From Siphonodentalium dalli (taxonomy: Eukaryota; Mollusca; Scaphopoda; Gadilida; Siphonodentaliidae), in assembly GCA_032622095.1 (NCBI GenBank), contig CP136067.1:99128707-99192706 (forward strand): a stretch of DNA of 64,000 nucleotides, in the 5' to 3' direction. The translations under genes were made by a program, and so were the position numbers. Positions 37,243-60,318 of this stretch are shown in pieces. Each line of letters begins with the position of its first letter. Positions within the stretch are counted from its first letter, which is position 1. Below the pieces are notes generated by a model that saw only the letters and a program-made list of their open reading frames with translations, ran no database searches and was not told where the DNA came from.

Positions 37243-37730
37243 AATTTCTAATAAGCGATATCACTGAGTCGCTACCATATTGGATCCAGGCAGCCTTCAT
37301 TCCGCGGTTTAAGTGCTACATATCTGGATTTCATGAATATTTAAAACTCCATATATATGGAATGCTACTCCAGAACTTTGACCTGTAGCGCTGATATGAA
37401 TGCGTGGAACGGGGATGGGTGGATCCAATATGGTTTAGCGACTCAGTGGTCTCGTTTATTAAACTACATCATTTCTAATACGCCATGTCACTAACTCGCG
37501 GCCATATTCGATCCACCAGGTTCGATTCTGTGGTTTTACTTAGTTTTCCATATATGGAAGTCATGAATAATTCAAAAGCTCCATATTTGGAAATGCTATA
37601 CTCCAAAACTTTGACATGTAGCACTAAAACCACGGAACCGGGGCTGGATGAATCTTTGAAACCACGGAACCGGACCTGGTGGATCCAATATGGCCGCGAG
37701 TTAGTGACAGTGCGTATTGAACGTGAATAG
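37243..37730. mobile_element. Two adjacent related MITEs
   Basis: The first MITE (about 37243-37462) has inverted ends around 'cactgagtcgcta' and 'ccatattggatcca'. The second (about 37470-37730) has inverted ends around 'tgtcactaactcgcggccat' and 'ggatccaccaggt'. Both cores share a 'ccatatatggaa' / 'actttgac(c/a)tgtagc' plan, so they are cousins inserted side by side. An open frame (37485-37730) is a product of the fold. Duplicated at 48488-48975. Confidence 0.65.
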
Positions 37731-37827
37731 TGTGCCCTTATCGGGAGGAACTTATGTTTGAAGGTGACATGCTTGGATGTATAGGCTTAATTTAATCGAC
37801 ATTCAATATAATACATGCTATATATAG

Positions 37828-38908: not shown

Positions 38909-38916
38909 CTATATAG

Positions 38917-39599
38917 GCCTTTATTATCAAAGTCCAATGTACATTATATTAGTGGGGTATAGATTAATAACAAAATTGTTCACTTTATGACTAAAGCATG
39001 AAATTGTGCATGCAGGTACAAATTCACATACTTATTGATTTTAGATTTGGATCCACACTGAAGGGGTTTTCAGAATTTAAAGTGCATTTAGTAATTATAT
39101 AAAATATTAAATGTCACAATTAATCGTACCATGGAATGTGCTATTTGAAAGTATGCCTCTGTGACATATTTTTCAGAATTATATTGTCATCAGACAAGGT
39201 CTGCTGGGTACAGTTACGATCAAAATATTTAACATTGAAACCAATGGAGATATTCACGGTTTGTCCAAATACTCGTTGTGACATCACTTATTGGTAAGCA
39301 TATTTCTATACTCTATTGCGAAAACGGCTCTGATGTGTAACCGGTTGTAACTATAGGAGTGATTTCATAAAGGCAAAAAACAATATAGTTATGCCACCAG
39401 ATACAGTAATAAACAATATTATGGGACAAATGGCTCAGTAATATTGTCCAATATAAAGTATAATGATCAATGCTTACCGAGACTGAAGTTTTATGATACG
39501 GTTATAAAGTTGATGATATTTGTTAACAATTGATAACATTGTTAACCATCTCTATACTAAATATTTGGTGAGTATTATACAGTTATCGCCCGCGATTGA
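38917..39599. other. Unannotated sequence
   Basis: No gene or repeat recognised. Duplicated at 50162-50844. Confidence 0.4.
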
Positions 39600-39709
39600 G
39601 TGAGACACGGGGATTTGTCGCCCGCTCGAGACCTGGAATGCACCCGAGGGCCGCCAGGCCCGAGGGTGACATTCCAGGTCGAGAGCGGCGACAAATCCCC
39701 GTGTCTCAC
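39600..39709. repeat. GC-rich imperfect hairpin, ~48-bp stem
   Basis: 'gtgagacacggggatttgtc' is matched by its complement at the other side, continuing through 'gacctggaatg' to a loop near 'ggccgccaggcc', with a few mismatches. Duplicated at 50845-50954. Confidence 0.85.
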
Positions 39710-40368
39710 GAAAACAAGGGTGACAACTGTTTTGTTCTCTGACAAAGGAGTACACACGAAGCTTCTCAATGGCATGCCTATAAGTACGCGTGTATATTCA
39801 TTAATCCAGCTCAATTTAAAGAGTTAATTTTATGTTGGAATCCTCGCTTTTAGAAAATAAAACGTTCATATTTTGGATCAATTGATGAACCCGTCATTTG
39901 CGGAGCTATTGTCCGGTTAGTTTGCTGGTCACATGGTGAGAATCGGTTCACGGAAGGAGGAGTAAAGCAATTTCGAAGTAGATTAGCCATGCGGCGAAAG
40001 GTTCAGTGTCGTTTTAAATGAACGTAATGACGCAGGTAGACGTGTTAATTTCGAGAACGCTAAAATGTGAAACTTGGTGCCAAAATAAATTGACAACATA
40101 ATGGTATTCCTGTGAAGTCGGAGGAATGTATAACCGAAGACAATTATCGATTGATAAATAGTGAAGAGTGGCTATTTGATATTTAGAGCTTAGTACAGAA
40201 ACGTATTTGTGACGAATGAACATCGTGTGTGCAATTCAAATTAGCAAACACCACAGTGGGGTTTATAAAATGCGTGTTTTCGGAAATTGTTAGAGAGCTG
40301 TGATGTAATCTCTGTGCGTTGAGTTCTTCGTAGTTCTATGTTTACTGGCAACATCTGAGCGGTCCATA
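39710..40368. other. Pre-integration flank of the Polinton-like element
   Basis: No gene recognised. It ends with the 6-bp direct repeat ACTGCC at 40369-40374. The matching stretch in copy 2 is 50955-51613. Confidence 0.45.
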
Positions 40369-40439
40369 ACTGCCAGAAGAATAGGAGGCTCGTTGGATCC
40401 ACTTCTAAAAATAGAATCTTTGGGTCTAAAATTGGTTGT

Positions 40440-40640
40440 ACTAAAATATTCCCAAAACTTCCAAAATATCAAAACCCAAAAAAAAAATTCAAAACTTCCA
40501 AAAATTATTTTTTCCAAAAAATTTCAAAATCCCAAAACTTCCACAAAATTTCAAAATCCCCAAATTTCAAAAAAAGAAAAAATTTCAAAAACCCCCAAAA
40601 TTATTTCTCTAAAAAAAAAGTTTAAATAAAAAATTTATAA
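40440..40640. repeat. A-rich subterminal tandem repeat of the Polinton-like arm
   Basis: Repeats of 'caaaacttccaaaa' and 'atttcaaaatccc' type words, about 65 bases inside the terminus. Equivalent blocks are 51685-51880 and, inverted, 60055-60250. Small length differences exist between copies. Confidence 0.75.
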
Positions 40641-40801
40641 CGAGTTTTCGGTTTCTGATAATCTCGATATTAAAATGTCGAATGTTAAATTATTTGCGTG
40701 TAATATCTTTCGTTATTTTTTTTTGTTCAACCAATGTTTCAATGTATTTATTAATCGATGTTTAGAAATAGCTTTATTGGACATTGTGACCATCGGTATG
40801 A

Positions 40802-41062
40802 ATGCATACATTCCAGTGTTTATCGGACGCAGTTCATACATATATAATTGTCATACCTGAAAATAGACACCATTACTCTTACATAAATAATAAAGAGCGT
40901 TTATTCTTTACACTCTCTATCCCAGATGAAGTTATTGAGTATATGACAGACATGTATTACCGTGAATTATTGGAAGTATTGAGATGTACTATCTTGAATC
41001 ACGAGCGGACAACCCCCCAGAATGAATTGTCATATTCGATGGAACATATTATGTACACGTAA
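40802..41062 (+). other. 86-codon open frame conserved in all four arms, uncertain gene
   Basis: An 86-residue frame with composition ...IPDEVIEYMTDMYYRELLE..., repeated at 52046-52306 (+), 44913-45173 (-) and 59626-59886 (-). The only protein change seen is Thr to Ala in both right arms. Conservation is uninformative because all copies are young duplicates. No domain is recognised. An AACGCTCTTTA word lies inside it on the other strand (40889-40902). It could be a small element gene or chance. Confidence 0.2.
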
Positions 41063-41682
41063 TCACACACGACATTGTGGGTAACAATGTGTCTTTCACA
41101 CCTTGCTTTACCAAATGAATTCTATTATATTCCCGTTCACAAGTATATGCCATTCAGAAAACATATCGATTTAATGTCTGAGCAGAATTAGTTGTTTAAC
41201 GGGTTAGTATCAATTAAGGTTGATAAACTGTGTCATTGTTAGCATTAACACGATAATTAGTTATCCAAAACATGCATACATAATACGTCCAGGTCACTCA
41301 ATGATAGAAATTGCATCGGTGTCATTGTTATAACAACATTACGTAATAACCACTTATCATTCCATTCACACTTACGTTCATTTTGTATACCAAAAACTCC
41401 AGTTAGCACCGATGAGGTAACATTATATCACTGCTATTGTATCAGTTGATAGGTTCAGACAAGTTCGATGTTTAGAAATAGATAATAACAATTGTTAAAT
41501 GTGCAGATAACTGTATGTAGGCCTACCAGTGGATGAATAGTCTGCCGGAGAAGTACTGTGTAGACAGGTCTTGTCGGCAAGAGAGTCAGACGAGAAGTGA
41601 AGGCTCGGCTATTAAAACATAGTAATGCGATAGCGAACATCAAACGAGTCTGCGCACGCATATCTGTCAAAGGATACAATGG

Positions 41683-41768
41683 CAGTCATTGGTCAATTTA
41701 TCCCCGGTGTCAGCTCAGTACAATAACAGTCATTGGTCAATTTATCCCCGGTGTCAGCTCAGTACACA
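41683..41768. repeat. 44-bp direct duplication inside the element arm
   Basis: 'cagtcattggtcaatttatc' starts at 41683 and again at 41727. Also present at the corresponding places in the other arms. Confidence 0.85.
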
Positions 41769-41802
41769 ATCGGCACGAAGCCGGAGGTCATAATTACTCT
41801 TA

Positions 41803-42362
41803 CGAATGAAGAGCGTTGAACATATACGAAATTATTACACGAATGAACTGAAATTTATATTTCACATCTTACCAACAACAGATACAGACATAGTCATAGT
41901 GTTATACTATCTTACATGTACCCATGCTATGACATCATTCGAAGGGGCAATACACTCAAGGAGTTAAAGTGACACGAAACAAGGGACGTGATGTAATATT
42001 GGTGTTTGAATCTTAAAGGAACACAAGACACTCTAAAGGGACACTCATTATGAATGAATGTTAACAATACAAGCGCACGAATGAAGAGCGTTGAACATAT
42101 ACGAAATTACTACACGAATGAACTGAAATTTATATTTCACATCTTACCAACAACAGATACAGACATAGGCATAGTGTTATACTATCTTACATGTACCCAT
42201 GCTATGACATACTCAAAGGGGGATAATGCACGCACGGTGTGGAATGTTAAAATGACACGAAACAAGGGACGTGATGCAATATTGGTGTTTGAATATTAAA
42301 AGGAACACAAGACACTCTAAAGGGACACTCATTATGAATGAATGTTAACAATACAAGCGCAG
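41803..42362. repeat. 275-bp direct repeat, two copies, in the element arm
   Basis: The unit starting 'cgaatgaagagcgttgaaca' occurs at 41803 and 42078, each ending with 'gaatgttaacaatacaagcg'. The second carries an 81-codon open frame (42054-42299) that is disrupted in the first. Also present in arms 53047-53606 and, inverted, about 58320-58885. Confidence 0.8.
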
Positions 42363-42533
42363 TGGTTGAAAGTTAAAATGACAGATCAATATTTAAGGGT
42401 CAAATTTTCGGGCACTTAATGCACCTTTTATCATTACGTATCGTTTCTCACTCTACAATTCCCAATAATCCACACACTCTCTCCCCCCAGCTTATAGATA
42501 TATAACGAAAACGAGAATATCATGTTGATGAAG

Positions 42534-42539
42534 TTTATT
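42534..42539 (-). promoter_or_regulatory. Polyadenylation signal of ATPase copy A
   Basis: AATAAA on the minus strand, 5 bases beyond the stop codon. The equivalents are 53778-53783 (copy B) and 58149-58154 (copy C). Such a short 3' end is typical of compact virus-like genes. Confidence 0.7.
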
Positions 42540-42544
42540 GAAAT

Positions 42545-44335
42545 TTAATCGTCCGAATTGTCATCACTTTCGTCAGAAGTGTCATATGTTACGTCCATGA
42601 ATTTTTCTAGCATCGGTTTGTACTTTAATATTAACATTTTCACTGCATCACATTCTCCATAACCATTATTCAAATATTTGTCGACTTTATCCATGACTCT
42701 GTTGTGCAGAGTCCCATTGCGCAGCTGCAGATACGATACTATTGTCCAAGCATAATCATTCATAAAGTGTATCATATCTTTACTTTTAAGGTCCTTGTCA
42801 GCTTGTTCTTTTGCTTCTGCGTCTTTCGAGCCATTTTCCTTATACGTGTCCACTTTATCACTCCATTCCTCACGTGTTTTATCTCTACTTTCATCACACA
42901 AACTTTTGAAGTATTCATCTTCATTCAATTTAATTTCCTTATTCTGACTATCATCCGGGTCCTCAGTTAATTTTCGTTTTAACTTATTTTCTTGACACCA
43001 GTTTTTTACGTGTCTCTGAACATCATAATGATCTGCGAACAAAAGCCCACAGTCATTACAAGGGTACGACATGTCTTCTCGAATGTCTATGTTTTGACGG
43101 CTCTTCTTATTAATTTCATCGAGCTCACCCGGTGGCCGTATGTCGTTAGTATAGTCATTATGTTGACCCTGGGGCACAATATAATTATATGTTATGCCCT
43201 TCTGTTGACCAGGGAGTTCTCTGTCATCATATTTCATCGCATTCTGTTGACCCTGGGTCTCAGTGTCTTTTGTATGTTTTTTCATCCCATTCTGTTCATC
43301 TGGGTGTTCTCTGTCTTTTTGGAGATTGTATTTCATGCCATTCCATTCACCCCTATGTTGGTTCGTGTCCTCTTTTAGTACATTCTGTCGCAGACGTAAT
43401 GTGTCCGGGGTTGCGGCTTTTAAATCCACCAGTAGGTAACCGTACGGTTCACTCGTCGCTTCCGAAAACTCTCGAACCATACGCTGAGGACATTCAGGAT
43501 ACATCTGTCTTGATAATGTTGAAATTAATCCCTTGTCGATTGGGTTATTGAACAATACCAAATATTGACAATTTCGTCGTTGCGTTGGATCTTTGTTGTA
43601 GTAGAAATTCTGGTTCAAACTTATCAAAGATAAGTTCAAATGGTGACTTCCTTCGGAATGCAAATCATTAACTCTCTGGTCTTTTGATGAAGTTTGCATC
43701 AAGTCATCGAGTATAACTAGATTTTTATACCGGGGGTTGATAAGAGAATCCAAGTTTGCTGGTATTCCTCGTATAAAGTTGACCTGAGGGGTGACGGTAT
43801 ACTTTAATTCGTCATATAGGGGCTGCCAATATTTATAAAACCATATTATTCTGTCAGGTGCGGGTGATATTTTTGAGGCAGACTTTTGTAGTAAGGTTTT
43901 CACGAAGTATGTCTTACCACAAGATGTCGGTCCACTTACACGTGGCGTGAATGGATGCTTGAAAATAAAATCTTCATGGACATTGGCCATTGGATCATCA
44001 AAGTAGGATGTTATGTCGCTTGGTGGCTGTTGTTGTGGTTGTTGTTGTTGTTGTTGTTGGTGGTGTTGTTGTTGTTGTTGTTGTTGTTGTTGGTGTTGTT
44101 GTTGTTGTTGTTGTTGTGGCTGATGATAATGTTGTTGTTGTTGTTGTTGTTGTGGCTGATGTGGCTGATGATACTGTTGTTGTTGTTGTTGTTGTTGGTG
44201 TTGGTGTTGCGGCTGATGATACTGTTGTTGTTGTTGTTGTTGTTGTTCTGAAGGTGTGTGTTTAACTTTGATATGACGCTTCAAACTATCTTGCCAAGCA
44301 TAGGCACTTAAGCACTCTTCACATTGATACTTCAT
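42545..44335 (-). CDS. Polinton/Maverick-type packaging ATPase with zinc fingers, copy A
   Basis: 596 residues. Order: C2H2 finger (C5, C8, H21, H26); Gln/His-rich tract (31-103); P-loop ATPase domain (about 118-320) with Walker A GPTSCGKT (135-142), Walker B LVILDD (206-211) and a Q-containing sensor (SLNQN, 239-243); a repeated linker with NGMK/NAMK motifs (331-395); a second finger, CCHC type (C426, C429, H442, C447); a charged segment; an acidic C-terminus. Walker B ending DD, the SHHLNLS stretch and the ATSEPYGYLLVDLK stretch match the A32-like/FtsK-HerA ATPases of Polintons and related viruses, which pump DNA into capsids. The start is the ATG 18 bases past the likely initiator. Compared with B and C it differs at residues 10-11 (SA versus RV), at 111 (Y versus C) and at 132 (R versus C). 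No capsid, polymerase or integrase neighbour is present. Confidence 0.85.
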   Translation of the reverse strand: MKYQCEECLSAYAWQDSLKRHIKVKHTPSEQQQQQQQQYHQPQHQHQQQQQQQQYHQPHQPQQQQQQQHYHQPQQQQQQQHQQQQQQQQQHHQQQQQQQPQQQPPSDITSYFDDPMANVHEDFIFKHPFTPRVSGPTSCGKTYFVKTLLQKSASKISPAPDRIIWFYKYWQPLYDELKYTVTPQVNFIRGIPANLDSLINPRYKNLVILDDLMQTSSKDQRVNDLHSEGSHHLNLSLISLNQNFYYNKDPTQRRNCQYLVLFNNPIDKGLISTLSRQMYPECPQRMVREFSEATSEPYGYLLVDLKAATPDTLRLRQNVLKEDTNQHRGEWNGMKYNLQKDREHPDEQNGMKKHTKDTETQGQQNAMKYDDRELPGQQKGITYNYIVPQGQHNDYTNDIRPPGELDEINKKSRQNIDIREDMSYPCNDCGLLFADHYDVQRHVKNWCQENKLKRKLTEDPDDSQNKEIKLNEDEYFKSLCDESRDKTREEWSDKVDTYKENGSKDAEAKEQADKDLKSKDMIHFMNDYAWTIVSYLQLRNGTLHNRVMDKVDKYLNNGYGECDAVKMLILKYKPMLEKFMDVTYDTSDESDDNSDD

Positions 44336-44378
44336 TTTCCTATATAATCAGTGAAATCGAGCGTTCTTCTATGCACCT

Positions 44379-44389
44379 ATATTTATATA
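44379..44389 (-). promoter_or_regulatory. TATA box of ATPase copy A
   Basis: On the minus strand TATATAAATA lies about 45 bases before the ATG, with an initiator-like TCACT about 33 bases downstream of the TATA box. The equivalents are 55620-55630 (copy B) and 56299-56310 (copy C). Confidence 0.65.
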
Positions 44390-44597
44390 GAACAGAAACA
44401 AGGGAAACGTGGTGGACTAGTTAACTAGTGCAGGCTGTCGTTCACAACGTCTCTTAGTGTTGTTTGTACTGGATACAAATTTATCACATTAGCTACAATA
44501 CAACCTACCTATCCAAATGTCAATGCAATTATGAGTGATTTCAATATGAACACTCTATTATATAGATATGTGTAACCTGGTGACTGACATGATGATA

Positions 44598-44849
44598 CAG
44601 TTATGCACTAAATAATGGACTGCTTAACCACAGCAGAATTATAGGTAACTTTTCAGGAGTTAGTCGGAAATATGGCTTGTTGCCATTCATCGGAAAGCTC
44701 TCGACCCCGACGGCGGCGGCGGCACCACCGCCGCAGGCGCCGTCGAGAGCTTTCCGATGAATGGCAACAAGCCATATTTCCGACTAACTCCTGAAAAGTT
44801 ACCTATAATTCTGCTGTGGTTAAGCAGTCCATTATTTAGTGCATAACTG
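44598..44849. mobile_element. Palindromic Tc1/mariner-like MITE at the apex, copy 1
   Basis: Begins CAGTTATGCACTAAATAATG and ends with its complement. TA borders both ends. It is a 252-bp palindrome apart from a GC-rich centre (cccgacggcggcgg...). A shortened relative, with independent flanks, is at 63123-63273, which shows this is a mobile sequence and not merely part of the arm. Confidence 0.75.
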
Positions 44850-45228
44850 TATCATCATGTCAGTCACCAGGTTACACATATCTATATAATAGAGTGTTCA
44901 TATCGTGTGTGATTACGTGTACATAATATGTTCCATCGAATATGACAATTCATTCTGGGGGGTTGTCCGCTCGTGATTCAAGATAGCACATCTCAATACT
45001 TCCAATAATTCACGGTAATACATGTCTGTCATATACTCAATAACTTCATCTGGGATAGAGAGTGTAAAGAATAAACGCTCTTTATTATTTATGTAAGAGT
45101 AATGGTGTCTATTTTCAGGTATGACAATTATATATGTATGAACTGCGTCCGATAAACACTGGAATGTATGCATTCATACCGATGGTCACAATGTCCAATA
45201 AAGCTATTTCTAAACATCGATTAATAAA

Positions 45229-47496
45229 TCGATTCGATATAGCGCGAATAATAAATTGCCAGTCATATAATTTGCACGGTTAGAATCTGTGTGGCTTCAT
45301 CTTTCCAACGATATATAATATGTATGTATCCGTTTTAGTTATCTGCCTCAATTATTAGGTACAAGTGGTACGGGGATCTTTTATCAGGATAAAATCACTG
45401 CGTAACATCTATGACGTCGTCAGAGGTCATAAAGTTAGATTACGTTAACTCTCACCCTGCCGATGCATTTGACTGTGTCGCGTTAACTCATCACCGGCCG
45501 AGGTATCCGCAAATGACATTGGGCTATATATCTCGGAAACGGGTGTAGCTATCGACTTGAAATTTGGTATGTGAATGTATCTTGCCCCGGATACGAATTT
45601 TATCGGGTCGCCGAGCACGTGCGACGCCAGCTTCGCGCATGCGCAGACGAGATCTCGTAAACGGGTTGAGATATTGACTTTAAATTTGGTATGTGAATGT
45701 ATCTTGCCCCGGATACGAATTTTATCGGGTCGCCGAGCACGTGCGACACCAGCTTCGCGCATGCGCAGAACAGATCTAGGAAACGGGTGGAGCAATCGAC
45801 TTGAAATTTGGTTTTTTAATAGCCCGGACGAAGTCGGGTCACCTTCTAGTCTATTATATATTTTGAAAGATCTGTGTATGTGTTTGTTTGTGTGTTTGAA
45901 ATCGATGGACTCCAAAACGACTAAGCCAATTTCGATGAAATTTGGTATTTGGATGTGTTTTCGGCCGGAGACGAACATAGGCATATTTATTTGTCCGTGC
46001 GAGGTCAACGTTTCACGTGCGGAGGTCAAATCTATTTTTACGCCGTTTTTGCGCTAATATATTTCAGTTCGGTGCTCACAAATCGATTCGATATAGCGCG
46101 AATAATAAATTGCCAGTCATATAATTTGCACGGTTAGAATCTGTGTGGCTTCATCTTTCCAACGATATATAATATGTATGTATCCGTTTTAGTTATCTGC
46201 CTCAATTATTAGGTACAAGTGGTACGGGGATCTTTTATCAGGATAAAATCACTGCGTAACTTCTATGACGTCGTCAGATGTCATAAAGTTAGATTACGTT
46301 AACTCTCACCCTGCCGATGCATTTGACTGTGTCGCGTTAACTCATCACCGGCCGAGGTATCCGCAAATGACATTGGGCTATATATCTCGTAAACGGGTGT
46401 AGCTATCGACTTGAAATTTGGTATGTGAATGTATCTTGCCCCGGATACGAATTTTATCGGGTCGCCGAGCACGTGCGACACCAGCTTCGCGCATGCGCAG
46501 ACCAGATCTAGGAAACGGGTGGAGCAATCGACTTGAAATTTGGTTTTTTAATAGCCCGGACGAAGTCGGGTCACCTTCTAGTCTATTATATATTTTGAAA
46601 GATCTGTGTGTGTGTTTGTTTGTGTGTGTGTTTGAAATCGATGGACTCGAAAACGACTAAGCCAATTTCGATGAAATTTGGTATTTTAGGGTATTTTCGG
46701 CCGGAGACGAACATAGGCATATTTATTTGTCCGTGCGAGGTCAACTTTTCACGTGCGGAGGTCAAATCTATTTTTACGCCGTTTTGCGCTAATATATTTC
46801 AGTTCGGTGCTCACAAATCGATTCGATATAGCGCGAATAATAAATTGCCAGTCATATAATTTGCACGGTTAGAATCTGTGTGGCTTCATCTTTCCAACGA
46901 TATATAATATGTATGTATCCGTTTTAGTTATCTGCCTCAATTAATAGGGAGAAGTGGTACGATCTTTTATCAGGATAAAATCAATGCGTAACTTCTATGA
47001 CGTCGTTAGAGGTCATACAGTTAGATCACGTTAACTCTCACCCGGCCGATGCATTTGACTGTTTCAGACGTCTTGGCGATATCTCGGGCACCGATGGTAA
47101 TTTAGCTTTACGTTGAAACTTGATAATTAATGAGTGTGTGTATATGAGGCGCGTTTATATACTTCAGTGGAAATCAAATCTGGCGGATTTTTACGGACGA
47201 AATTAATTTGATGCATAGGGTATCTCGGTATCCGCTGGGCCGATTTCCCGGTATCCGCTGGGCCGATTTCCACCATTTTTGGGGTGTTGGTGTTTGACCC
47301 CACCTGACCTTGACCTTCAAAATGGTCAATTCAAGGTCAAATCGGGTAAAACCGGATGGATTTCGACGGGTACTTTTGTCGGGTACTTTTGTTCGGGCAG
47401 TGTTTTGGACGGGTCAAATCGTGACCCCACTTGACCTTGGCCTTCAAAATAGACAATTCAAGGTCAAACCCCGGACGAAGTCGGGTCACCTTCTAG
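45229..47496 (+). mobile_element. Helitron-like array, second block
   Basis: Holds a truncated unit (45229-45849), a 732-bp hybrid unit (45850-46581) and the divergent last unit (46582-47496). The hybrid resembles the 900-type unit at its 5' side and the 748-type unit at its 3' side, with the switch between about 46280 and 46440. That matches the left limit of the large duplication. Confidence 0.75.
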
Positions 47497-48487
47497 TATC
47501 ATATATACGGGCGTTAGCCAGAGTAGAGATTCATGGCATGTTCTAATTTCCATTATACTTCTAGTTGGGTTGGATACATTATGACAATCTGAACAGTTAT
47601 GTGAACTTTATTAAACTCACTTGGCCGTTTCCGCTCCACAATATATCTAAATAATATTTGCTATTGAATTTTTCCCGGTATTGAAATTCGTCGATAAATA
47701 CTTTAGTTACCTTTCTACGGTCATTATATGTCCCGCAAGAGAATTGAAGTAATAAAAATTACAAATTTGAACACGATATTTCGGAAATTGGGACCCAAAC
47801 AAAAAACAGCCGTACGCACGGCACGGAGTGTTCAGAGAAAAGCGTCCAGTACAGTCTATTCCTGATATGGTATACCATATATATAGAAGCAAAGAGCGTT
47901 TGCATTACATAATTTTTTTTTTTTTATATTACATTACATAACTGAGTCAAATAAAATTTATTATTTTATTCGTGTGATTATATTAGTTTCTGTTAAATTC
48001 AAGCCATGCCCTTCCAGAATTCCAGAAAACAAAATGAGAAATTCACACACAAAATGCGATATTATTACCTGAAATTGGCGTTTGAAATTCCTGACAGTGA
48101 AAGGCCTTAATTGTATGTCCAAAATCAATTTCTTTCAAGGTGAGCATAATTATAATCATTGAACTTATATACCTGTCTCATATTTCAGACTTTCTGTTCA
48201 TCTGTTATTCTACTCAATTTATAACTTATGTTGAATAAAGAACTGAATTGAATTGAATTGAAACATGCCAGTACGGACCCGCCCCGCCGAAAAACTGGCA
48301 ACGCCAATGACAGTCTATATGCACCACAGGTGGTGGGATTCACCCCAATTACCGAATTTATGGGACCATATTTTTCTCGAGGCCGATCTTCCGATATAAT
48401 ATGATAATCCAGCTGCGGCCGATATCTAACAGGAACAAAAATAAAATGATTATGACTTTAACGATGTTACCCACACCCAATTTCGGC

Positions 48488-48975
48488 AATTTCTAATAAG
48501 CGATATCACTGAGTCGCTACCATATTGGATCCAGGCAGCCCTCATTCCGCGGTTTAAGTGCTACATATCTGGATTTCATGAATATTTAAAACTCCATATA
48601 TATGGAATGCTACTCCAGAACTTTGACCTGTAGCGCTGATATGAATGCGTGGAACGGGGATGGGTGGATCCAATATGGTTTAGCGACTCAGTGGTCTCGT
48701 TTATTAAACTACATCATTTCTAATACGCCATGTCACTAACTCGCGGCCATATTCGATCCACCAGGTTCGATTCTGTGGTTTTACTTAGTTTTCCATATAT
48801 GGAAGTCATGAATAATTCAAAAGCTCCATATTTGGAAATGCTATACTCCAAAACTTTGACATGTAGCACTAAAACCACGGAACCGGGGCTGGATGAATCT
48901 TTGAAACCACGGAACCGGACCTGGTGGATCCAATATGGCCGCGAGTTAGTGACAGTGCGTATTGAACGTGAATAG
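48488..48975. mobile_element. MITE pair, duplicate of 37243-37730
   Basis: Same two MITEs at the duplication offset, with isolated substitutions (for example 'gccctcatt' for 'gccttcatt'). Confidence 0.65.
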
Positions 48976-49072
48976 TGTGCCCTTATCGGGAGGAACTTAT
49001 GTTTGAAGGTGACATGCTTGGATGTATAGGCTTAATTTAATCGACATTCAATATAATACATGCTATATATAG

Positions 49073-50153
49073 TAGTGATGCGGACCGGACCGGACCACCT
49101 TGTGCACTGCCAAGGCGGTCCAGTCCCGTCCGGTCCAGGCCACTCCGGTCCGGTACACATGTATGGACCGGTCCAAAACGGTCCGGTCCACCTATAATAG
49201 GCTATATGTTAATGAATTCTGAAGTTTTTACTCTGTATAGTACAAACTATAAGGTTACTGAGTTCAGTGCATTGCAATGAGTCCATATATCTTAAAACTT
49301 ACATTGTTTGCCGGTTGTATGCATCATTGTCTGTCTCTGGTGGGATATACTGGGAACGATGCACGATAATAGTATTTCTAGTAATGCGAAAATGCACTAA
49401 TTAAATGTATTGGACAGATATATAGCTAGGGCCAGAATGTGTTATAACCAATCTAACATGGCACTCAACTGATCGTATGCATGATTCGTATCATACTTAT
49501 TTTCATTAAATTGACATTTAAACGAAATAACTATACTGATGACAATTATACAAATGTGTACTAATATGACTACTACATTACTATTGGAGTCTTGGATATT
49601 GTGATGGCAGATTGTATAGTCCTGACAATTTACAGTTATATACCTAAGTACAACTACTATTGAATTAATGTGACTGTCTTGTGTATGTACTATGTAATGT
49701 GATTTGCATGTTTCTTCGATAATTATAACTGTGAAAAACAATAGAATACTCGATTCATTATCCATCCAAATTGATTAGTTGATGCCATGTTACACTGTTT
49801 ATGACAAATAGTTCCATACTCATGCAGTTGCATGTTTGTCGCATTGATAGGATGCTACATAGTGTTGGCCAGTGTTACTCTATATACTAATACATTTTAA
49901 GGAAAGTGACATGTACAAAGTACATCTATACATTGTTTTCGTGGCATCAAATGTTTTATAGATATTAACCACTTGAATGCGTCAATACATCGTTGCTAAT
50001 ATGCAATAATATTCGCGATAGTTTATTATAACTGAAGTAAAATAGTGGACCGGACCGGAGAGTACCGGACCGGCGGCAAAAAGCGGTCCGGTCCGGTCCA
50101 GTGACACCCGGTCCGGACCGGACCGGTCCAAAGCGGTCCGGTCCGCATCACTA
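49073..50153. mobile_element. hAT-like element, duplicate of 37828-38908
   Basis: Same ends, imperfect 8-bp duplication and GGTCCGG subterminal words. Copied as part of the large duplication, not by transposition. Confidence 0.7.
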
Positions 50154-50844
50154 CTATATAGGCCTTTATTATCAAAGTCCAATGTACATTATATTAGTGG
50201 GGTATAGATTAATAACAAAATTGTTCACTTTATGACTAAAGCATGAAATTGTGCATGCAGGTACAAATTCACATACTTATTGATTTTAGATTTGGATCCA
50301 CACTGAAGGGGTTTTCAGAATTTAAAGTGCATTTAGTAATTATATAAAATATTAAATGTCACAATTAATCGTACCATGGAATGTGCTATTTGAAAGTATG
50401 CCTCTGTGACATATTTTTCAGAATTATATTGTCATCAGACAAGGTCTGCTGGGTACAGTTACGATCAAAATATTTAACATTGAAACCAATGGAGATATTC
50501 ACGGTTTGTCCAAATACTCGTTGTGACATCACTTATTGGTAAGCATATTTCTATACTCTATTGCGAAAACGGCTCTGATGTGTAACCGGTTGTAACTATA
50601 GGAGTGATTTCATAAAGGCAAAAAACAATATAGTTATGCCACCAGATACAGTAATAAACAATATTATGGGACAAATGGCTCAGTAATATTGTCCAATATA
50701 AAGTATAATGATCAATGCTTACCGAGACTGAAGTTTTATGATACGGTTATAAAGTTGATGATATTTGTTAACAATTGATAACATTGTTAACCATCTCTAT
50801 ACTAAATATTTGGTGAGTATTATACAGTTATCGCCCGCGATTGA

Positions 50845-50954
50845 GTGAGACACGGGGATTTGTCGCCCGCTCGAGACCTGGAATGCACCCGAGGGCCGCC
50901 AGGCCCGAGGGTGACATTCCAGGTCGAGAGCGGCGACAAATCCCCGTGTCTCAC
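50845..50954. repeat. GC-rich hairpin, duplicate of 39600-39709
   Basis: Identical in position and structure to the copy 1 hairpin. Confidence 0.85.
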
Positions 50955-51613
50955 GAAAACAAGGGTGACAACTGTTTTGTTCTCTGACAAAGGAGTACAC
51001 ACGAAGCTTCTCAATGGCATGCCTATAAGTACGCGTGTATATTCATTAATCCAGCTCAATTTAAAGAGTTAATTTTATGTTGGAATCCTCGCTTTTAGAA
51101 AATAAAACGTTCATATTTTGGATCAATTGATGAACCCGTCATTTGCGGAGCTATTGTCCGGTTAGTTTGCTGGTCACATGGTGAGAATCGGTTCACGGAA
51201 GGAGGAGTAAAGCAATTTCGAAGTAGATTAGCCATGCGGCGAAAGGTTCAGTGTCGTTTTAAATGAACGTAATGACGCAGGTAGACGTGTTAATTTCGAG
51301 AACGCTAAAATGTGAAACTTGGTGCCAAAATAAATTGACAACATAATGGTATTCCTGTGAAGTCGGAGGAATGTATAACCGAAGACAATTATCGATTGAT
51401 AAATAGTGAAGAGTGGCTATTTGATATTTAGAGCTTAGTACAGAAACGTATTTGTGACGAATGAACATCGTGTGTGCAATTCAAATTAGCAAACACCACA
51501 GTGGGGTTTATAAAATGCGTGTTTTCGGAAATTGTTAGAGAGCTGTGATGTAATCTCTGTGCGTTGAGTTCTTCGTAGTTCTATGTTTACTGGCAACATC
51601 TGAGCGGTCCATA

Positions 51614-51619
51614 ACTGCC
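51614..51619. other. Left 6-bp target-site duplication ACTGCC
   Basis: ACTGCC lies immediately before the AG terminus at 51620 and is repeated directly after the CT terminus (60313-60318). Polintons/Mavericks characteristically make 6-bp duplications. Confidence 0.8.
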
Positions 51620-53788
51620 AGAAGAATAGGAGGCTCGTTGGATCCACTTCTAAAAATAGAATCTTTGGGTCTAAAATTGGTTGTACTAAAATATTCCCAA
51701 AACTTCCAAAATATCAAAACCCAAAAAAAAATTTCAAAACTTCCAAAAATTATTTTTTCCAAAAAATTTCAAAATCCCAAAACTTCCACAAAATTTCAAA
51801 ATCCCCAAATTTCAAAAAAAGAAAAAATTTCAAAAACCCCCAAAATTATTTCTCTAAAAAAAAAGTTTAAATAAAAAATTTATAACGAGTTTTCGGTTTC
51901 TGATAATCTCGATATTAAAATGTCGAATGTTAAATTATTTGCGTGTAATATCTTTCGTTATTTTTTTTGTTCAACCAATGTTTCAATGTATTTATTAATC
52001 GATGTTTAGAAATAGCTTTATTGGACATTGTGACCATCGGTATGAATGCATACATTCCAGTGTTTATCGGACGCAGTTCATACATATATAATTGTCATAC
52101 CTGAAAATAGACACCATTACTCTTACATAAATAATAAAGAGCGTTTATTCTTTACACTCTCTATCCCAGATGAAGTTATTGAGTATATGACAGACATGTA
52201 TTACCGTGAATTATTGGAAGTATTGAGATGTACTATCTTGAATCACGAGCGGACAACCCCCCAGAATGAATTGTCATATTCGATGGAACATATTATGTAC
52301 ACGTAATCACACACGACATTGTGGGTAACAATGTGTCTTTCACACCTTGCTTTACCAAATGAATTCTATTATATTCCCGTTCACAAGTATATGCCATTCA
52401 GAAAACATATCGATTTAATGTCTGAGCAGAATTAGTTGTTTAACGGGTTAGTATCAATTAAGGTTGATAAACTGTGTCATTGTTAGCATTAACACGATAA
52501 TTAGTTATCCAAAACATGCATACATAATACGTCCAGGTCACTCAATGATAGAAATTGCATCGGTGTCATTGTTATAACAACATTACGTAATAACCACTTA
52601 TCATTCCATTCACACTTACGTTCATTTTGTATACCAAAAACTCCAGTTAGCACCGATGAGGTAACATTATATCACTGCTATTGTATCAGTTGATAGGTTC
52701 AGACAAGTTCGATGTTTAGAAATAGATAATAACAATTGTTAAATGTGCAGATAACTGTATGTAGGCCTACCAGTGGATGAATAGTCTGCCGGAGAAGTAC
52801 TGTGTAGACAGGTCTTGTCGGTAAGAGAGTCAGACGAGAAGTGAAGGCTCGGCTATTAAAACATAGTAATGCGATAGCGAACATCAAACGAGTCTGCGCA
52901 CGCATATCTGTCAAAGGATACAATGGCAGTCATTGGTCAATTTATCCCCGGTGTCAGCTCAGTACAATAACAGTCATTGGTCAATTTATCCCCGGTGTCA
53001 GCTCAGTACACAATCGGCACGAAGCCGGAGGTCATAATTACTCTTACGAATGAAGAGCGTTGAACATATACGAAATTATTACACGAATGAACTGAAATTT
53101 ATATTTCACATCTTACCAACAACAGATACAGACATAGTCATAGTGTTATACTATCTTACATGTACCCATGCTATGACATCATTCGAAGGGGCAATACACT
53201 CAAGGAGTTAAAGTGACACGAAACAAGGGACGTGATGTAATATTGGTGTTTGAATCTTAAAGGAACACAAGACACTCTAAAGGGACACTCATTATGAATG
53301 AATGTTAACAATACAAGCGCACGAATGAAGAGCGTTGAACATATACGAAATTACTACACGAATGAACTGAAATTTATATTTCACATCTTACCAACAACAG
53401 ATACAGACATAGGCATAGTGTTATACTATCTTACATGTACCCATGCTATGACATACTTAAAGGGGGATAATGCACGCACGGTGTGGAATGTTAAAATGAC
53501 ACGAAACAAGGGACGTGATGCAATATTGGTGTTTGAATATTAAAAGGAACACAAGACACTCTAAAGGGACACTCATTATGAATGAATGTTAACAATACAA
53601 GCGCAGTGGTTGAAAGTTAAAATGACAGATCAATATTTAAGGGTCAAATTTTCGGGCACTTAATGCACCTTTTATCATTACGTATCGTTTCTCACTCTAC
53701 AATTCCCAATAATCCACACACTCTCTCCCCCCAGCTTATAGATATATAACGAAAACGAGAATATCATGTTGATGAAGTTTATTGAAAT

Positions 53789-55576
53789 TTAATCGTCCGA
53801 ATTGTCATCACTTTCGTCAGAAGTGTCATATGTTACGTCCATGAATTTTTCTAGCATCGGTTTGTACTTTAATATTAACATTTTCACTGCATCACATTCT
53901 CCATAACCATTATTCAAATATTTGTCGACTTTATCCATGACTCTGTTGTGCAGAGTCCCATTGCGCAGCTGCAGATACGATACTATTGTCCAAGCATAAT
54001 CATTCATAAAGTGTATCATATCTTTACTTTTAAGGTCCTTGTCAGCTTGTTCTTTTGCTTCTGCGTCTTTCGAGCCATTTTCCTTATACGTGTCCACTTT
54101 ATCACTCCATTCCTCACGTGTTTTATCTCTACTTTCATCACACAAACTTTTGAAGTATTCATCTTCATTCAATTTAATTTCCTTATTCTGACTATCATCC
54201 GGGTCCTCAGTTAATTTTCGTTTTAACTTATTTTCTTGACACCAGTTTTTTACGTGTCTCTGAACATCATAATGATCTGCGAACAAAAGCCCACAGTCAT
54301 TACAAGGGTACGACATGTCTTCTCGAATGTCTATGTTTTGACGGCTCTTCTTATTAATTTCATCGAGCTCACCAGGTGGCCGTATGTCGTTAGTATAGTC
54401 ATTATGTTGACCCTGGGGCACAATATAATTATATGTTATGCCCTTCTGTTGACCAGGGAGTTCTCTGTCATCATATTTCATCGCATTCTGTTGACCCTGG
54501 GTCTCAGTGTCTTTTGTATGTTTTTTCATCCCATTCTGTTCATCTGGGTGTTCTCTGTCTTTTTGGAGATTGTATTTCATGCCATTCCATTCACCCCTAT
54601 GTTGGTTCGTGTCCTCTTTTAGTACATTCTGTCGCAGACGTAATGTGTCCGGGGTTGCGGCTTTTAAATCCACCAGTAGGTAACCGTACGGTTCACTCGT
54701 CGCTTCCGAAAACTCTCGAACCATACGCTGAGGACATTCAGGATACATCTGTCTTGATAATGTTGATATTAATCCCTTGTCGATTGGGTTATTGAACAAT
54801 ACCAAATATTGACAATTTCGTCGTTGCGTTGGATCTTTGTTGTAGTAGAAATTCTGGTTCAAACTTATCAAAGATAAGTTCAAATGGTGACTTCCTTCGG
54901 AATGCAAATCATTAACTCTCTGGTCTTTTGATGAAGTTTGCATCAAGTCATCGAGTATAACTCGATTTTTATACCGGGGGTTGATAAGAGAATCCAAGTT
55001 TGCTGGTATTCCTCGTATAAAGTTGACCTGAGGGGTGACGGTATACTTTAATTCGTCATATAGGGGCTGCCAATATTTATAAAACCATATTATTCTGTCA
55101 GGTGCGGGTGATATTTTTGAGGCAGACTTTTGTAGTAAGGTTTTCACGAAGTATGTCTTACCACAAGATGTCGGTCCACTTACACATGGCGTGAATGGAT
55201 GCTTGAAAATAAAATCTTCATGGACATTGGCCATTGGATCATCAAAGCAGGATGTTATGTCGCTTGGTGGCTGTTGTTGTGGTTGTTGTTGTTGTTGTTG
55301 TTGGTGGTGTTGTTGTTGTTGTTGTTGTTGTTGTTGGTGTTGTTGTTGTTGTTGTTGTTGTGGCTGATGATAATGTTGTTGTTGTTGTTGTTGTTGTTGT
55401 GGCTGATGTGGCTGATGATACTGTTGTTGTTGTTGTTGTTGTTGGTGTTGGTGTTGCGGCTGATGATACTGTTGTTGTTGTTGTTGTTCTGAAGGTGTGT
55501 GTTTAACTTTGATATGACGCTTCAAACTATCTTGCCAAGCATAGACTCTTAAGCACTCTTCACATTGATACTTCAT
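53789..55576 (-). CDS. Polinton/Maverick-type packaging ATPase, copy B (left arm)
   Basis: 595 residues with the same architecture as copy A; the Gln/His tract differs in internal run lengths. The N-terminal finger keeps its four ligands. One change may matter: the hydrophobic stretch of Walker B reads NRVILDD in place of NLVILDD (Leu to Arg one residue before VILDD), seen only in this copy. Walker A is intact. It shares Cys before the VSGPTS segment and RV at 10-11 with copy C. It is divergent to copy C across the apex, 776 bases start to start, each gene with its own TATA box and initiator. Activity cannot be judged from sequence, but the Arg is unusual for a buried beta strand. Confidence 0.85.
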   Translation of the reverse strand: MKYQCEECLRVYAWQDSLKRHIKVKHTPSEQQQQQQYHQPQHQHQQQQQQQQYHQPHQPQQQQQQQQHYHQPQQQQQQQHQQQQQQQQQHHQQQQQQQPQQQPPSDITSCFDDPMANVHEDFIFKHPFTPCVSGPTSCGKTYFVKTLLQKSASKISPAPDRIIWFYKYWQPLYDELKYTVTPQVNFIRGIPANLDSLINPRYKNRVILDDLMQTSSKDQRVNDLHSEGSHHLNLSLISLNQNFYYNKDPTQRRNCQYLVLFNNPIDKGLISTLSRQMYPECPQRMVREFSEATSEPYGYLLVDLKAATPDTLRLRQNVLKEDTNQHRGEWNGMKYNLQKDREHPDEQNGMKKHTKDTETQGQQNAMKYDDRELPGQQKGITYNYIVPQGQHNDYTNDIRPPGELDEINKKSRQNIDIREDMSYPCNDCGLLFADHYDVQRHVKNWCQENKLKRKLTEDPDDSQNKEIKLNEDEYFKSLCDESRDKTREEWSDKVDTYKENGSKDAEAKEQADKDLKSKDMIHFMNDYAWTIVSYLQLRNGTLHNRVMDKVDKYLNNGYGECDAVKMLILKYKPMLEKFMDVTYDTSDESDDNSDD

Positions 55577-55619
55577 TTTCCTATATAATCAGTGAAATCG
55601 AGCGTTCTTCTATGCACCT

Positions 55620-55630
55620 ATATTTATATA
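55620..55630 (-). promoter_or_regulatory. TATA box of ATPase copy B
   Basis: TATATAAATA on the minus strand, followed by TCACT and the ATG at 55576, as in copies A and C. Confidence 0.65.
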
Positions 55631-55838
55631 GAACAGAAACAAGGGAAACGTGGTGGACTAGTTAACTAGTGCAGGCTGTCGTTCACAACGTCTCTTAGTG
55701 TTGTTTGTACTGGATACAAATTTATCACATTAGCTACAATACAACCTACCTATCCAAATGTCAATGCAATTATGAGTGATTTCAATATGAACACTCTATT
55801 ATATAGATATGTGTAACCTGGTGACTGACATGATGATA

Positions 55839-56090
55839 CAGTTATGCACTAAATAATGGACTGCTTAACCACAGCAGAATTATAGGTAACTTTTCAGGAG
55901 TTAGTCGGAAATATGGCTTGTTGCCATTTATCGGAAAGCTCTCGACCCCGACGGCGGCGGCGGCACCACCGCCGCAGGTGCCGTCGAGAGCTTTCCGATG
56001 AATGGCAACAAGCCATATTTCCGACTAACTCCTGAAAAGTTACCTATAATTCTGCTGTGGTTAAGCAGTCCATTATTTAGTGCATAACTG
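55839..56090. mobile_element. Palindromic Tc1/mariner-like MITE at the apex, copy 2
   Basis: A 252-bp palindromic MITE with TA on both sides (55837-55838 and 56091-56092). Its centre (about 55964.5) is the symmetry axis of the whole element. The sequence beyond the TA on each side is also mirror-symmetric ('gactgacatgatga' / 'tcatcatgtcagtc'), which a simple insertion into unique DNA would not give. Confidence 0.8.
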
Positions 56091-56298
56091 TATCATCATG
56101 TCAGTCACCAGGTTACACATATCTATATAATAGAGTGTTCATATTGAAATCACTCATAATTGCATTGACATTTGGATAGGTAGGTTGTATTGTAGCTAAT
56201 GTGATAAATTTGTATCCAGTACAAACAACACTAAGAGACGTTGTGAACGACAGCCTGCACTAGTTAACTAGTCCACCACGTTTCCCTTGTTTCTGTTC

Positions 56299-56310
56299 TA
56301 TATAAATATA
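56299..56310 (+). promoter_or_regulatory. TATA box of ATPase copy C
   Basis: TATATAAATATA, then TCACT at 56334-56338 and the ATG at 56353. The predicted 5' leader is about 18 bases. The word AACGCTCG sits between TATA and initiator. Confidence 0.65.
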
Positions 56311-56352
56311 GGTGCATAGAAGAACGCTCGATTTCACTGATTATATAGGAAA

Positions 56353-56534
56353 ATGAAGTATCAATGTGAAGAGTGCTTAAGAGTCTATGCTTGGCAAGAT
56401 AGTTTGAAGCGTCATATCAAAGTTAAACACACACCTTCAGAACAACAACAACAACAACAACAACAGTATCATCAGCCGCAACACCAACACCAACAACAAC
56501 AACAACAACAACAGTATCATCAGCCACATCAGCC

Positions 56535-56570
<36 letters not shown>

Positions 56571-58143
56571 TTATCATCAGCCACAACAACAACAACAACA
56601 ACACCAACAACAACAACAACAACAACAACACCACCACCAACAACAACAACCACAACAACAGCCACCAAGCGACATAACATCCTGCTTTGATGATCCAATG
56701 GCCAATGTCCATGAAGATTTTATTTTCAAGCATCCATTCACGCCATGTGTAAGTGGACCGACATCTTGTGGTAAGACATACTTCGTGAAAACCTTACTAC
56801 AAAAGTCTGCCTCAAAAATATCACCCGCACCTGACAGAATAATATGGTTTTATAAATATTGGCAGCCCCTATATGACGAATTAAAGTATACCGTCACCCC
56901 TCAGGTCAACTTTATACGAGGAATACCAGCAAACTTGGATTCTCTTATCAACCCCCGGTATAAAAATCTAGTTATACTCGATGACTTGATGCAAACTTCA
57001 TCAAAAGACCAGAGAGTTAATGATTTGCATTCCGAAGGAAGTCACCATTTGAACTTATCTTTGATAAGTTTGAACCAGAATTTCTACTACAACAAAGATC
57101 CAACGCAACGACGAAATTGTCAATATTTGGTATTGTTCAATAACCCAATCGACAAGGGATTAATTTCAACATTATCAAGACAGATGTATCCTGAATGTCC
57201 TCAGCGTATGGTTCGAGAGTTTTCGGAAGCGACGAGTGAACCGTACGGTTACCTACTGGTGGATTTAAAAGCCGCAACCCCGGACACATTACGTCTGCGA
57301 CAGAATGTACTAAAAGAGGACACGAACCAACATAGGGGTGAATGGAATGGCATGAAATACAATCTCCAAAAAGACAGAGAACACCCAGATGAACAGAATG
57401 GGATGAAAAAACATACAAAAGACACTGAGACCCAGGGTCAACAGAATGCGATGAAATATGATGACAGAGAACTCCCTGGTCAACAGAAGGGCATAACATA
57501 TAATTATATTGTGCCCCAGGGTCAACATAATGACTATACTAACGACATACGGCCACCTGGTGAGCTCGATGAAATTAATAAGAAGAGCCGTCAAAACATA
57601 GACATTCGAGAAGACATGTCGTACCCTTGTAATGACTGTGGGCTTTTGTTCGCAGATCATTATGATGTTCAGAGACACGTAAAAAACTGGTGTCAAGAAA
57701 ATAAGTTAAAACGAAAATTAACTGAGGACCCGGATGATAGTCAGAATAAGGAAATTAAATTGAATGAAGATGAATACTTCAAAAGTTTGTGTGATGAAAG
57801 TAGAGATAAAACACGTGAGGAATGGAGTGATAAAGTGGACACGTATAAGGAAAATGGCTCGAAAGACGCAGAAGCAAAAGAACAAGCTGACAAGGACCTT
57901 AAAAGTAAAGATATGATACACTTTATGAATGATTATGCTTGGACAATAGTATCGTATCTGCAGCTGCGCAATGGGACTCTGCACAACAGAGTCATGGATA
58001 AAGTCGACAAATATTTGAATAATGGTTATGGAGAATGTGATGCAGTGAAAATGTTAATATTAAAGTACAAACCGATGCTAGAAAAATTCATGGACGTAAC
58101 ATATGACACTTCTGACGAAAGTGATGACAATTCGGACGATTAA
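56353..58143 (+). CDS. Polinton/Maverick-type packaging ATPase, copy C (right arm)
   Basis: 596 residues, the best candidate for an intact gene. N-terminal C2H2 finger, Gln/His tract of CAA and CAC codons, Walker A GPTSCGKT, Walker B LVILDD, SHHLNLS and YGYLLVDLK stretches of the A32-like family, the repeated NGMK linker, the CCHC finger and an acidic tail. By family knowledge the ATPase domain translocates viral DNA into capsids. The added zinc fingers and poly-Q tract would be unusual for a minimal packaging motor and may bind DNA. No homolog search was run. It is the mirror partner of copy B, with a few synonymous or conservative changes and different Gln-run lengths. Confidence 0.87.
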
Positions 58144-58148
58144 ATTTC

Positions 58149-58154
58149 AATAAA
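58149..58154 (+). promoter_or_regulatory. Polyadenylation signal of ATPase copy C
   Basis: AATAAA 5 bases after the stop codon at 58141-58143. Confidence 0.7.
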
Positions 58155-60312
58155 CTTCATCAACATGATATTCTCGTTTTCGTTATATATCTATAAGCTG
58201 GGGGGAGAGAGTGTGTGGATTATTGGGAATTGTAGAGTGAGAAACGATACGTAATGATAAAAGGTGCATTAAGTGCCCGAAAATTTGACCCTTAAATATT
58301 GATCTGTCATTTTAACTTTCAACCACTGCGCTTGTATTGTTAACATTCATTCATAATGAGTGTCCCTTTAGAGTGTCTTGTGTTCCTTTTAATATTCAAA
58401 CACCAATATTGCATCACGTCCCTTGTTTCGTGACATTTTAACATTCCACACCGTGCGTGCATTATCCCCCTTTAAGTATGTCATAGCATGGGTACATGTA
58501 AGATAGTATAACACTATGCCTATGTCTGTATCTGTTGTTGGTAAGATGTGAAATATAAATTTCAGTTCATTCGTGTAGTAATTTCGTATATGTTCAACGC
58601 TCTTCATTCGTGCGCTTGTATTGTTAACATTCATTCATAATGAGTGTCCCTTTAGAGTGTCTTGTGTTCCTTTAAGATTCAAACACCAATATTACATCAC
58701 GTCCCTTGTTTCGTGTCACTTTAACTCCTTGAGTGTATTGCCCCTTCGAATGATGTCATAGCATGGGTACATGTAAGATAGTATAACACTATGACTATGT
58801 CTGTATCTGTTGTTGGTAAGATGTGAAATATAAATTTCAGTTCATTCGTGTAATAATTTCGTATATGTTCAACGCTCTTCATTCGTAAGAGTAATTATGA
58901 CCTCCGGCTTCGTGCCGATTGTGTACTGAGCTGACACCGGGGATAAATTGACCAATGACTGTTATTGTACTGAGCTGACACCGGGGATAAATTGACCAAT
59001 GACTGCCATTGTATCCTTTGACAGATATGCGTGCGCAGACTCGTTTGATGTTCGCTATCGCATTACTATGTTTTAATAGCCGAGCCTTCACTTCTCGTCT
59101 GACTCTCTTACCGACAAGACCTGTCTACACAGTACTTCTCCGGCAGACTATTCATCCACTGGTAGGCCTACATACAGTTATCTGCACATTTAACAATTGT
59201 TATTATCTATTTCTAAACATCGAACTTGTCTGAACCTATCAACTGATACAATAGCAGTGATATAATGTTACATCATCGGTGCTAACTGGAGTTTTTGGTA
59301 TACAAAATGAACGTAAGTGTGAATGGAATGATAAGTGGTTATTACGTAATGTTGTTATAACAATGACACCGATGCAATTTCTATCATTGAGTGACCTGGA
59401 CGTATTATGTATGCATGTTTTGGATAACTAATTATCGTGTTAATGCTAACAATGACACAGTTTATCAACCTTAATTGATACTAACCCGTTAAACAACTAA
59501 TTCTGCTCAGACATTAAATCGATATGTTTTCTGAATGGCATATAATTGTGAACGGGAATATAATAGAATTCATTTGGTAAAGCAAGGTGTGAAAGACACA
59601 TTGTTACCCACAATGTCGTGTGTGATTACGTGTACATAATATGTTCCATCGAATATGACAATTCATTCTGGGGGGTTGTCCGCTCGTGATTCAAGATAGC
59701 ACATCTCAATACTTCCAATAATTCACGGTAATACATGTCTGTCATATACTCAATAACTTCATCTGGGATAGAGAGTGTAAAGAATAAACGCTCTTTATTA
59801 TTTATGTAAGAGTAATGGTGTCTATTTTCAGGTATGACAATTATATATGTATGAACTGCGTCCGATAAACACTGGAATGTATGCATTCATACCGATGGTC
59901 ACAATGTCCAATAAAGCTATTTCTAAACATCGATTAATAAATACATTGAAACATTGGTTGAACAAAAAAAATAACGAAAGATATTACACGCAAATAATTT
60001 AACATTCGACATTTTAATATCGAGATTATCAGAAACCGAAAACTCGTTATAAATTTTGTATTTAAACTTTTTTTTTAGAGAAATAATTTTGGGGGTTTTT
60101 GAAATTTTTTCTTTTTTTGAAATTTGGGGATTTTGAAATTTTTTGGAAGTTTTGGGATTTTGAAATTTTTTGGAAAAAATAATTTTTGGAAGTTTTGAAA
60201 TTTTTTTTTGGGTTTTGATATTTTGGAAGTTTTGGGAATATTTTAGTACAACCAATTTTAGACCCAAAGATTCTATTTTTAGAAGTGGATCCAACGAGCC
60301 TCCTATTCTTCT

Positions 60313-60318
60313 ACTGCC
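60313..60318. other. Right 6-bp target-site duplication ACTGCC
   Basis: Directly follows the CT terminus. The sequence beyond it (gaaatgtttccc...) is unrelated to the left flank. Confidence 0.8.

Follow-up and report, generated by a model that had tools for sequence, protein, structure and literature searches.

Palindromic Polinton-ended elements in the genome of the scaphopod Siphonodentalium dalli: a possible hairpin-replicated satellite family

Introduction

The closest described systems to the element reported here are the Polintons/Mavericks (adintovirus-like), with which it shares AG-starting ends, inverted terminal repeats, 6-bp target duplications and a packaging-type ATPase; it also has its terminus in common with a full Polinton that lies in this genome. 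It differs from them in being palindromic, in a two-zinc-finger ATPase unlike that of the terminus-sharing Polinton, and in arms among whose ORFs no polymerase, integrase, protease or capsid gene was found. Vertebrate Polintons have 6-bp duplications and the end motifs (AGT)2 and (AG)3 (PMC8097293, in extract).

Self-complementary genomes are described for adeno-associated virus (AAV), where elongation through a closed hairpin yields inverted dimers whose axis carries the terminal repeat, and where the scAAV genome folds back on itself (PMC1131931, in extract). The present elements resemble AAV duplex dimers and scAAV in being inverted dimers and in having at the axis, where the loop is complete, a hairpin predicted to be T-shaped. 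AAV snapback subgenomes are likewise self-complementary forms that coexist with the full virus; they are particles of a single-stranded DNA virus, whereas here multi-copy genomic insertions are found whose gene is mostly open (PMC8235507, in extract). Unlike AAV, the elements have Polinton outer ends, integrate with 6-bp duplications and have no Rep domain in the ORFs examined; the likeness drawn here is one of hairpin shape. Phage satellites redirect the capsids of their helpers. The present element is similarly small and has kept a packaging function, by which it might use capsids of others. Foldback transposons share the very long inverted repeats (PMC6431247, in extract), but lack the Polinton ends, 6-bp duplications and viral-type gene per arm seen here. 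Among the open-access PMC papers listed, none gave an account of palindromic Polinton derivatives.

Results

The palindrome in the window

The window is the whole 64,000-nt stretch analysed (GCA_032622095.1, contig CP136067.1, positions 99,128,707 to 99,192,706). Self-comparison gave a single inverted alignment that ran end to end through a near-perfect palindrome of 8,693 bp (51620-60312; 99.08% identity, 62 mismatched columns and 6 gap openings, each arm difference being tallied twice in a self-alignment). When the arms were aligned by MAFFT, 34 columns were mismatched among 8,666 ungapped columns. The termini read AGAAGAATAG...CTATTCTTCT (AG...CT). The direct match between the bordering ACTGCC repeats stops at 6 bp in both directions; a 6-bp match placed so exactly is expected by chance about once in 4096. 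The features are as follows.

51614-51619, left 6-bp target duplication ACTGCC, exact match to 60313-60318
51620-55946, plus strand, left arm, from self-alignment and arm comparison
51620-52750, plus strand, outer left arm common to both ends of the full Polinton (arm positions 1-1131, in 85-90% blocks)
53789-55576, minus strand, packaging-type ATPase gene, 595 aa, carrying C2H2 zinc fingers N- and C-terminally and a linker rich in glutamine
55947-55982, axis loop of 36 nt, GC-rich and asymmetric, with one short hairpin
55983-60312, minus strand, right arm, from self-alignment and arm comparison
56353-58143, plus strand, second ATPase gene copy, 596 aa, on which domains and fold were examined
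60313-60318, right 6-bp target duplication ACTGCC, exact match to 51614-51619

The initial annotation had described a near-perfect palindrome bordered by ACTGCC with one packaging-type ATPase gene per arm, in full agreement with these data (arms 99.1% identical, both 6-bp repeats exact, ORFs of 595 and 596 aa); the underlying observation is thus confirmed, and is larger than was reported. Apart from the ATPase, two small arm ORFs matched no Pfam family above the cut-off in an ORF-level search, with one weak match to DUF1106 (E 0.0065). No ORF of more than 128 aa other than the ATPase lay wholly inside an arm; as regards a protein-primed PolB, the arms had no long ORF besides the ATPase. A retroviral-type integrase was not found in the arm ORFs examined, nor a Rep nickase domain in the three arm ORFs examined. 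Elsewhere in the window (23280-25198), ORFs judged by eye look Toll-like-receptor-like, with leucine-rich repeats and a TIR domain.

Beyond what had been annotated, the palindrome and its left flank were found to belong to a 10.5-kb direct duplication (34391-44903 = 45652-56144, 99.5%), from which two further features arise.

34391-44903, plus strand, first copy of the 10.5-kb duplication, covering the flank on the left and the left arm; second copy at 45652-56144
40369-45229, partial copy of the window insertion

The partial copy begins with ACTGCC (40369-40374), followed by a full left arm from 40375 with its ATPase gene (42545-44335, minus strand), a palindromic centre near 44724 and then an internal deletion; its right side is cut down to right-arm sequence (44900-45229 = 59613-59942) and continues into a 122-bp satellite. 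Satellite-like arrays of 122-bp units with higher-order repeats occupy 28401-35300 and 45226-47060 of the window. Since the partial copy already has a palindromic centre, the palindrome predates the 10.5-kb duplication, and by the duplication the left junction is supported twice. When the three window arms were compared, the columns in which one arm differed alone numbered 8 for the older copy, 3 for the left arm and 13 for the right arm (6 of them in the loop); outside the loop the two arms of the palindrome diverged at 10 columns and the two left arms at 11. This comparison fits arms with or without in-place conversion alike and shows neither.

A multi-copy family with its own target duplications

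The host genome (2.2 Gb in nine contigs) held ATPase copies on all nine. A census, in which 11,271 first-look candidates were narrowed to the best 73 copies for scoring (77 match rows), gave 16 inverted ATPase pairs, the window pair included; 53 of the 73 had no internal stop, in a sample biased to intact copies. The initial annotation had taken the palindrome for one defective form that had become fixed in a host genome; this single-fossil reading was dropped in favour of a multi-copy family in the same genome, with most scored genes free of internal stops.

Twenty loci (L009-L028) were fetched, 15 picked as paired and 5 as unpaired; among the latter L026 and L027 proved to be full palindromes, L025 and L028 had a truncated second arm and L024 was a single arm. 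Both ends were readable in 18 of the 20, and the 6-bp duplication was exact in 15 and a 5-of-6 match in 3, so that Polinton-type ends with 6-bp duplications, previously proposed for the window (where the duplication is exact), hold for the family. Flanks were common to L022 and L023, which look like one insertion, duplicated. From a terminus search (best 40 matches scored of 1,201 candidates) came about 15 additional inverted end pairs, of which 11 were read; those left out were three with lengths of 16-18 kb and a complex one. Four of these (L035-L038) were read whole, all with exact 6-bp duplications: two were inverted repeats whose halves are separated by about 0.24 and 0.45 kb and two were rearranged, L035 and L036 being shorter inverted-repeat derivatives. 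Seven further pairs were read at the midpoint only; L041 and L043-L046 were palindromic (5) and L042 and L047 were not (2). Non-palindromic as read were thus L024, L037, L038, L042 and L047. L037, with one full arm and the opposite terminal repeat, looks like a deletion derivative and not an ancestor.

That the element had entered the genome already palindromic was first argued from the 6-bp repeat that brackets it. A bracketing duplication proves no such entry by itself, because a normal element could become palindromic after insertion if one half were repaired from the other, and by that reasoning the target duplication would also end up outside the palindrome. Such repair is a very unlikely origin, given that the same architecture is found at many unlinked sites, whose target duplications differ. 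These many insertions at different sites, each with its own 6-bp duplication, bear out the claim; therefore the palindromic form enters the genome at insertion. An assembly or library fold-back artefact, a familiar suspicion since palindromes are classic artefacts, is extremely improbable: the arms differ, the ends coincide with target duplications, a second element copy lies inside the window and the ATPase copies are spread over every contig.

The elements are not all of one kind. L011, L022 and L023 start AGTAGT, to be compared with the Polinton end motif (AGT)2 (PMC8097293, in extract), and have other centres, with convergent ATPase genes in L022 and L023; for these reasons palindromes probably arose more than once. 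Two other loci had unusual structures: L013 carries a second, open zinc-finger ATPase (4880-6664), which is flanked by two ATPase arms in inverted orientation and shares 40% identity with that of the palindrome, and L025 has, from 1897 onward, two terminus sequences in tandem at its left end.

The terminus and a full Polinton of the same genome

A full Polinton of about 16 kb was located in the same genome (C2:222982.9-222999.1 kb, read as separate pieces L033, L034 and L040). It has a terminus of the same type, TIRs some 1.2 kb long and 97-98% alike, and the duplication CGTAGG at either side; its genes include PolB, an rve integrase with chromodomain (L034:1133-2284) and an adenain-like protease (E 6e-4, just below the Pfam cut-off). 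Arm positions 1-1131 of the window element matched both ends of this Polinton in blocks of 85-90% identity. The Polinton's own ATPase (230 aa), however, shares only 33% identity, across about 200 aa, with the ATPase of the palindrome. The initial annotation had proposed a search for a full Polinton sharing both terminus and ATPase; the terminus is indeed common over about 1.1 kb, but the ATPase is not. With a shared terminus and a different ATPase, the palindrome has the look of a satellite to Polintons of this kind, and the palindromes thus join Polinton ends to another ATPase lineage. A simple fold-back of the one terminus-sharing Polinton examined was ruled out by the low ATPase identity.

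For PolB, inspection by eye revealed no opposite-strand neighbour within 25 kb among 69 scored candidates, as compared with the 16 ATPase pairs among 73. Two classes of long open PolB frame (about 952 and 1312-1324 aa) occur on the genome contigs in many near-identical copies. The full Polinton also encodes a PC4-like coactivator (L033:7678-8331, E 4e-15) and a TATA-binding protein (L033:8313-8867, E 4e-32; PDB TBP matches to 1e-24). In the window and most of L009-L028 the terminus reads AGAAGAATAG, 4 variable bases, CTCGTT, 5 variable bases and CAC(A/T)TCTAAAAATAG, conserved blocks alternating with hypervariable short blocks.

The packaging-type ATPase

The ATPase matched Pfam Pox_A32 above the cut-off and has a C2H2 finger near either end of its core. 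The six best structural matches to its model were all to the packaging ATPase B204 of STIV/STIV2 (E 5.7e-7 to 8.5e-6); mean pLDDT of the model was 64.6, with core residues 121-320 in blocks of 69-94 and poor linkers. Sequence searches of PHROGs and PDB did not identify the core. The exact Walker A string of the other copies was lacking in L011, L022, L023 and the usable arm of L026.

Among the best 120 of 182 homologue matches, the top two were from Mizuhopecten and Pecten, and other named ones included Pinctada, Mytilus, Mya, Solemya, Ruditapes and one bacterial MAG. In Mya gene models, members of the palindrome ATPase lineage are joined to sequence of an integrase or a chromodomain, by which this lineage is also of Polinton type. 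Neither ATPase relatives nor an exact match to the T motif were found in viral contigs. In bacterial and archaeal genomes a single partial ATPase match turned up, in a Bathymodiolus symbiont MAG (L039); the contig concerned, where an inverted repeat was not found, is probably host mussel DNA.

Selection was estimated from 7 chosen element pairs for the pre-insertion period and from 15 elements for the post-insertion period (one usable arm each in L026 and L027; L013, L024, L025, L028 and L037 omitted). The ratio dN/dS was 0.52 before insertion (p 0.017) and 0.71 after it (p 0.19), with no significant difference between the two (Fisher 0.47). These values are only suggestive of an ATPase retained by selection.

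The hairpin at the axis

A core motif, belonging to a GC-rich loop, was present in 15 of the 20 loci L009-L028, and is absent from the window's own axis loop (55947-55982). Complete loops, picked by a pattern of stem ends plus one side arm, were obtained at 14 loci, that is, in 10 of 19 elements (about half; L025 was counted despite its truncated arm) and at four other centres; 13 of the 14 loops so picked were predicted to fold as a three-way junction, L019 being without one side arm. The complete T loop was absent from 9 of the 19 centres (the window, L009, L010, L011, L015, L022, L023, L026 and L028). Covariation was slight (1 of 30 pairs), and the predicted fold therefore rests on conserved sequence.

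Genome-wide, the core motif had 537 matches with at most 1 mismatch; the reversed control had 0. Four sites (L048-L051), chosen from 100 listed of the 537, were read, and an inverted-repeat axis was found at all four. At L048, where the axis lies within the ATPase gene, and at L049 the inverted repeat reached the edge of the 500 bp read; at L050 and L051 it spanned only 380 and 294 bp and adjoined terminal-repeat-like sequence. The hairpin thus adjoins inner sequences that differ; and as the repeats at L050 and L051 are short, some motifs mark no large palindrome. By eye, just 9 of the 100 listed sites lay no more than 6 kb from a scored ATPase copy, most ATPase copies being unscored.

The T hairpin could be an independent hairpin repeat that is associated with element sequence and plays no role in replication: its 537 copies exceed the 73 scored ATPase copies, and it abuts varied inner sequences, with only short local inverted repeats at L050/L051. 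Yet in large palindromes with a complete loop the T hairpin sits at the axis, a position unexpected from random insertion, and we regard an independent repeat as rather unlikely.

Arms within and between elements

In the arm tree, built from both arms of 14 complete elements (28 arms; L011, L022 and L023, of other terminus or topology, and the incomplete L013, L024, L025 and L028 being omitted), the two arms of an element were sisters in 14 of 14 cases (support 0.99-1.0), and branch lengths summed to 0.16 for stems and 0.045 for arm tips. Arm differences numbered 104; one column differed in more than one element, the state was unique to that arm in 84, and both states were present in other elements in 17. 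Under plain duplex inheritance without homogenisation, arm-specific differences would be expected to be common to descendants. The arms are alike because they have been homogenised, and fold-back copying before insertion and conversion after it both fit; the data do not decide between them.

In-place gene conversion keeps the arms of Y-chromosome palindromes alike, and the elements might be non-autonomous Polintons with very long terminal repeats that move as double-stranded DNA via a trans-acting integrase, their arms later being kept alike in the same way. The 6-bp duplications, the Polinton ends and the shorter inverted-repeat derivatives L035 and L036 are what such elements would give; sister arms fit conversion too, the window arms have diverged no more than the duplicated left arms, and full-Polinton TIRs are likewise 97-98% alike, which counts against the hairpin model. 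However, asymmetric indels remain between the arms of L019, L025 and L028, and conversion leaves unexplained both the conservation of the axis hairpin and its junction to varied inner sequences. We consider this origin a real possibility, but incline against it.

Discussion

With roughly even confidence, we read the window element as one insertion of a Polinton-ended, inverted-dimer mobile family that replicates by hairpin and is a helper-dependent satellite. Such an element would have a Polinton terminus at each outer end, an ATPase gene in each arm and the hairpin between the two genes, with polymerase and integrase provided by a full Polinton. A displaced single strand would fold at the central hairpin to a half-length duplex with one Polinton end, and copying through the hairpin would give again a double-length linear palindrome with equal arms, which the Polinton integrase would insert, duplicating 6 bp of the target. 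No gene was recognised other than the zinc-finger ATPase, which probably steers satellite DNA into helper capsids. All copies read are integrated, with no free hairpin or replication form among them, and it is from these integrated copies that the mechanism is drawn; hairpin replication, helper supply and capsid hijacking are favoured but unproven.

A bolder proposal is that the family represents a new class of animal-genome parasite: a self-complementary hairpin Polinton satellite, present in dozens and perhaps hundreds of copies, that combines a Polinton end with an AAV-like T hairpin and captures helper capsids with its own zinc-finger ATPase. We put this forward tentatively and think it unlikely as a whole.

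Snapback replication has mostly been studied in cell culture. Many datable copies would make it testable by arm comparison in a genome; the family would also be a naturally occurring parallel to the self-complementary genomes that have been engineered, and perhaps an equivalent, in animals, of satellites that hijack capsids.
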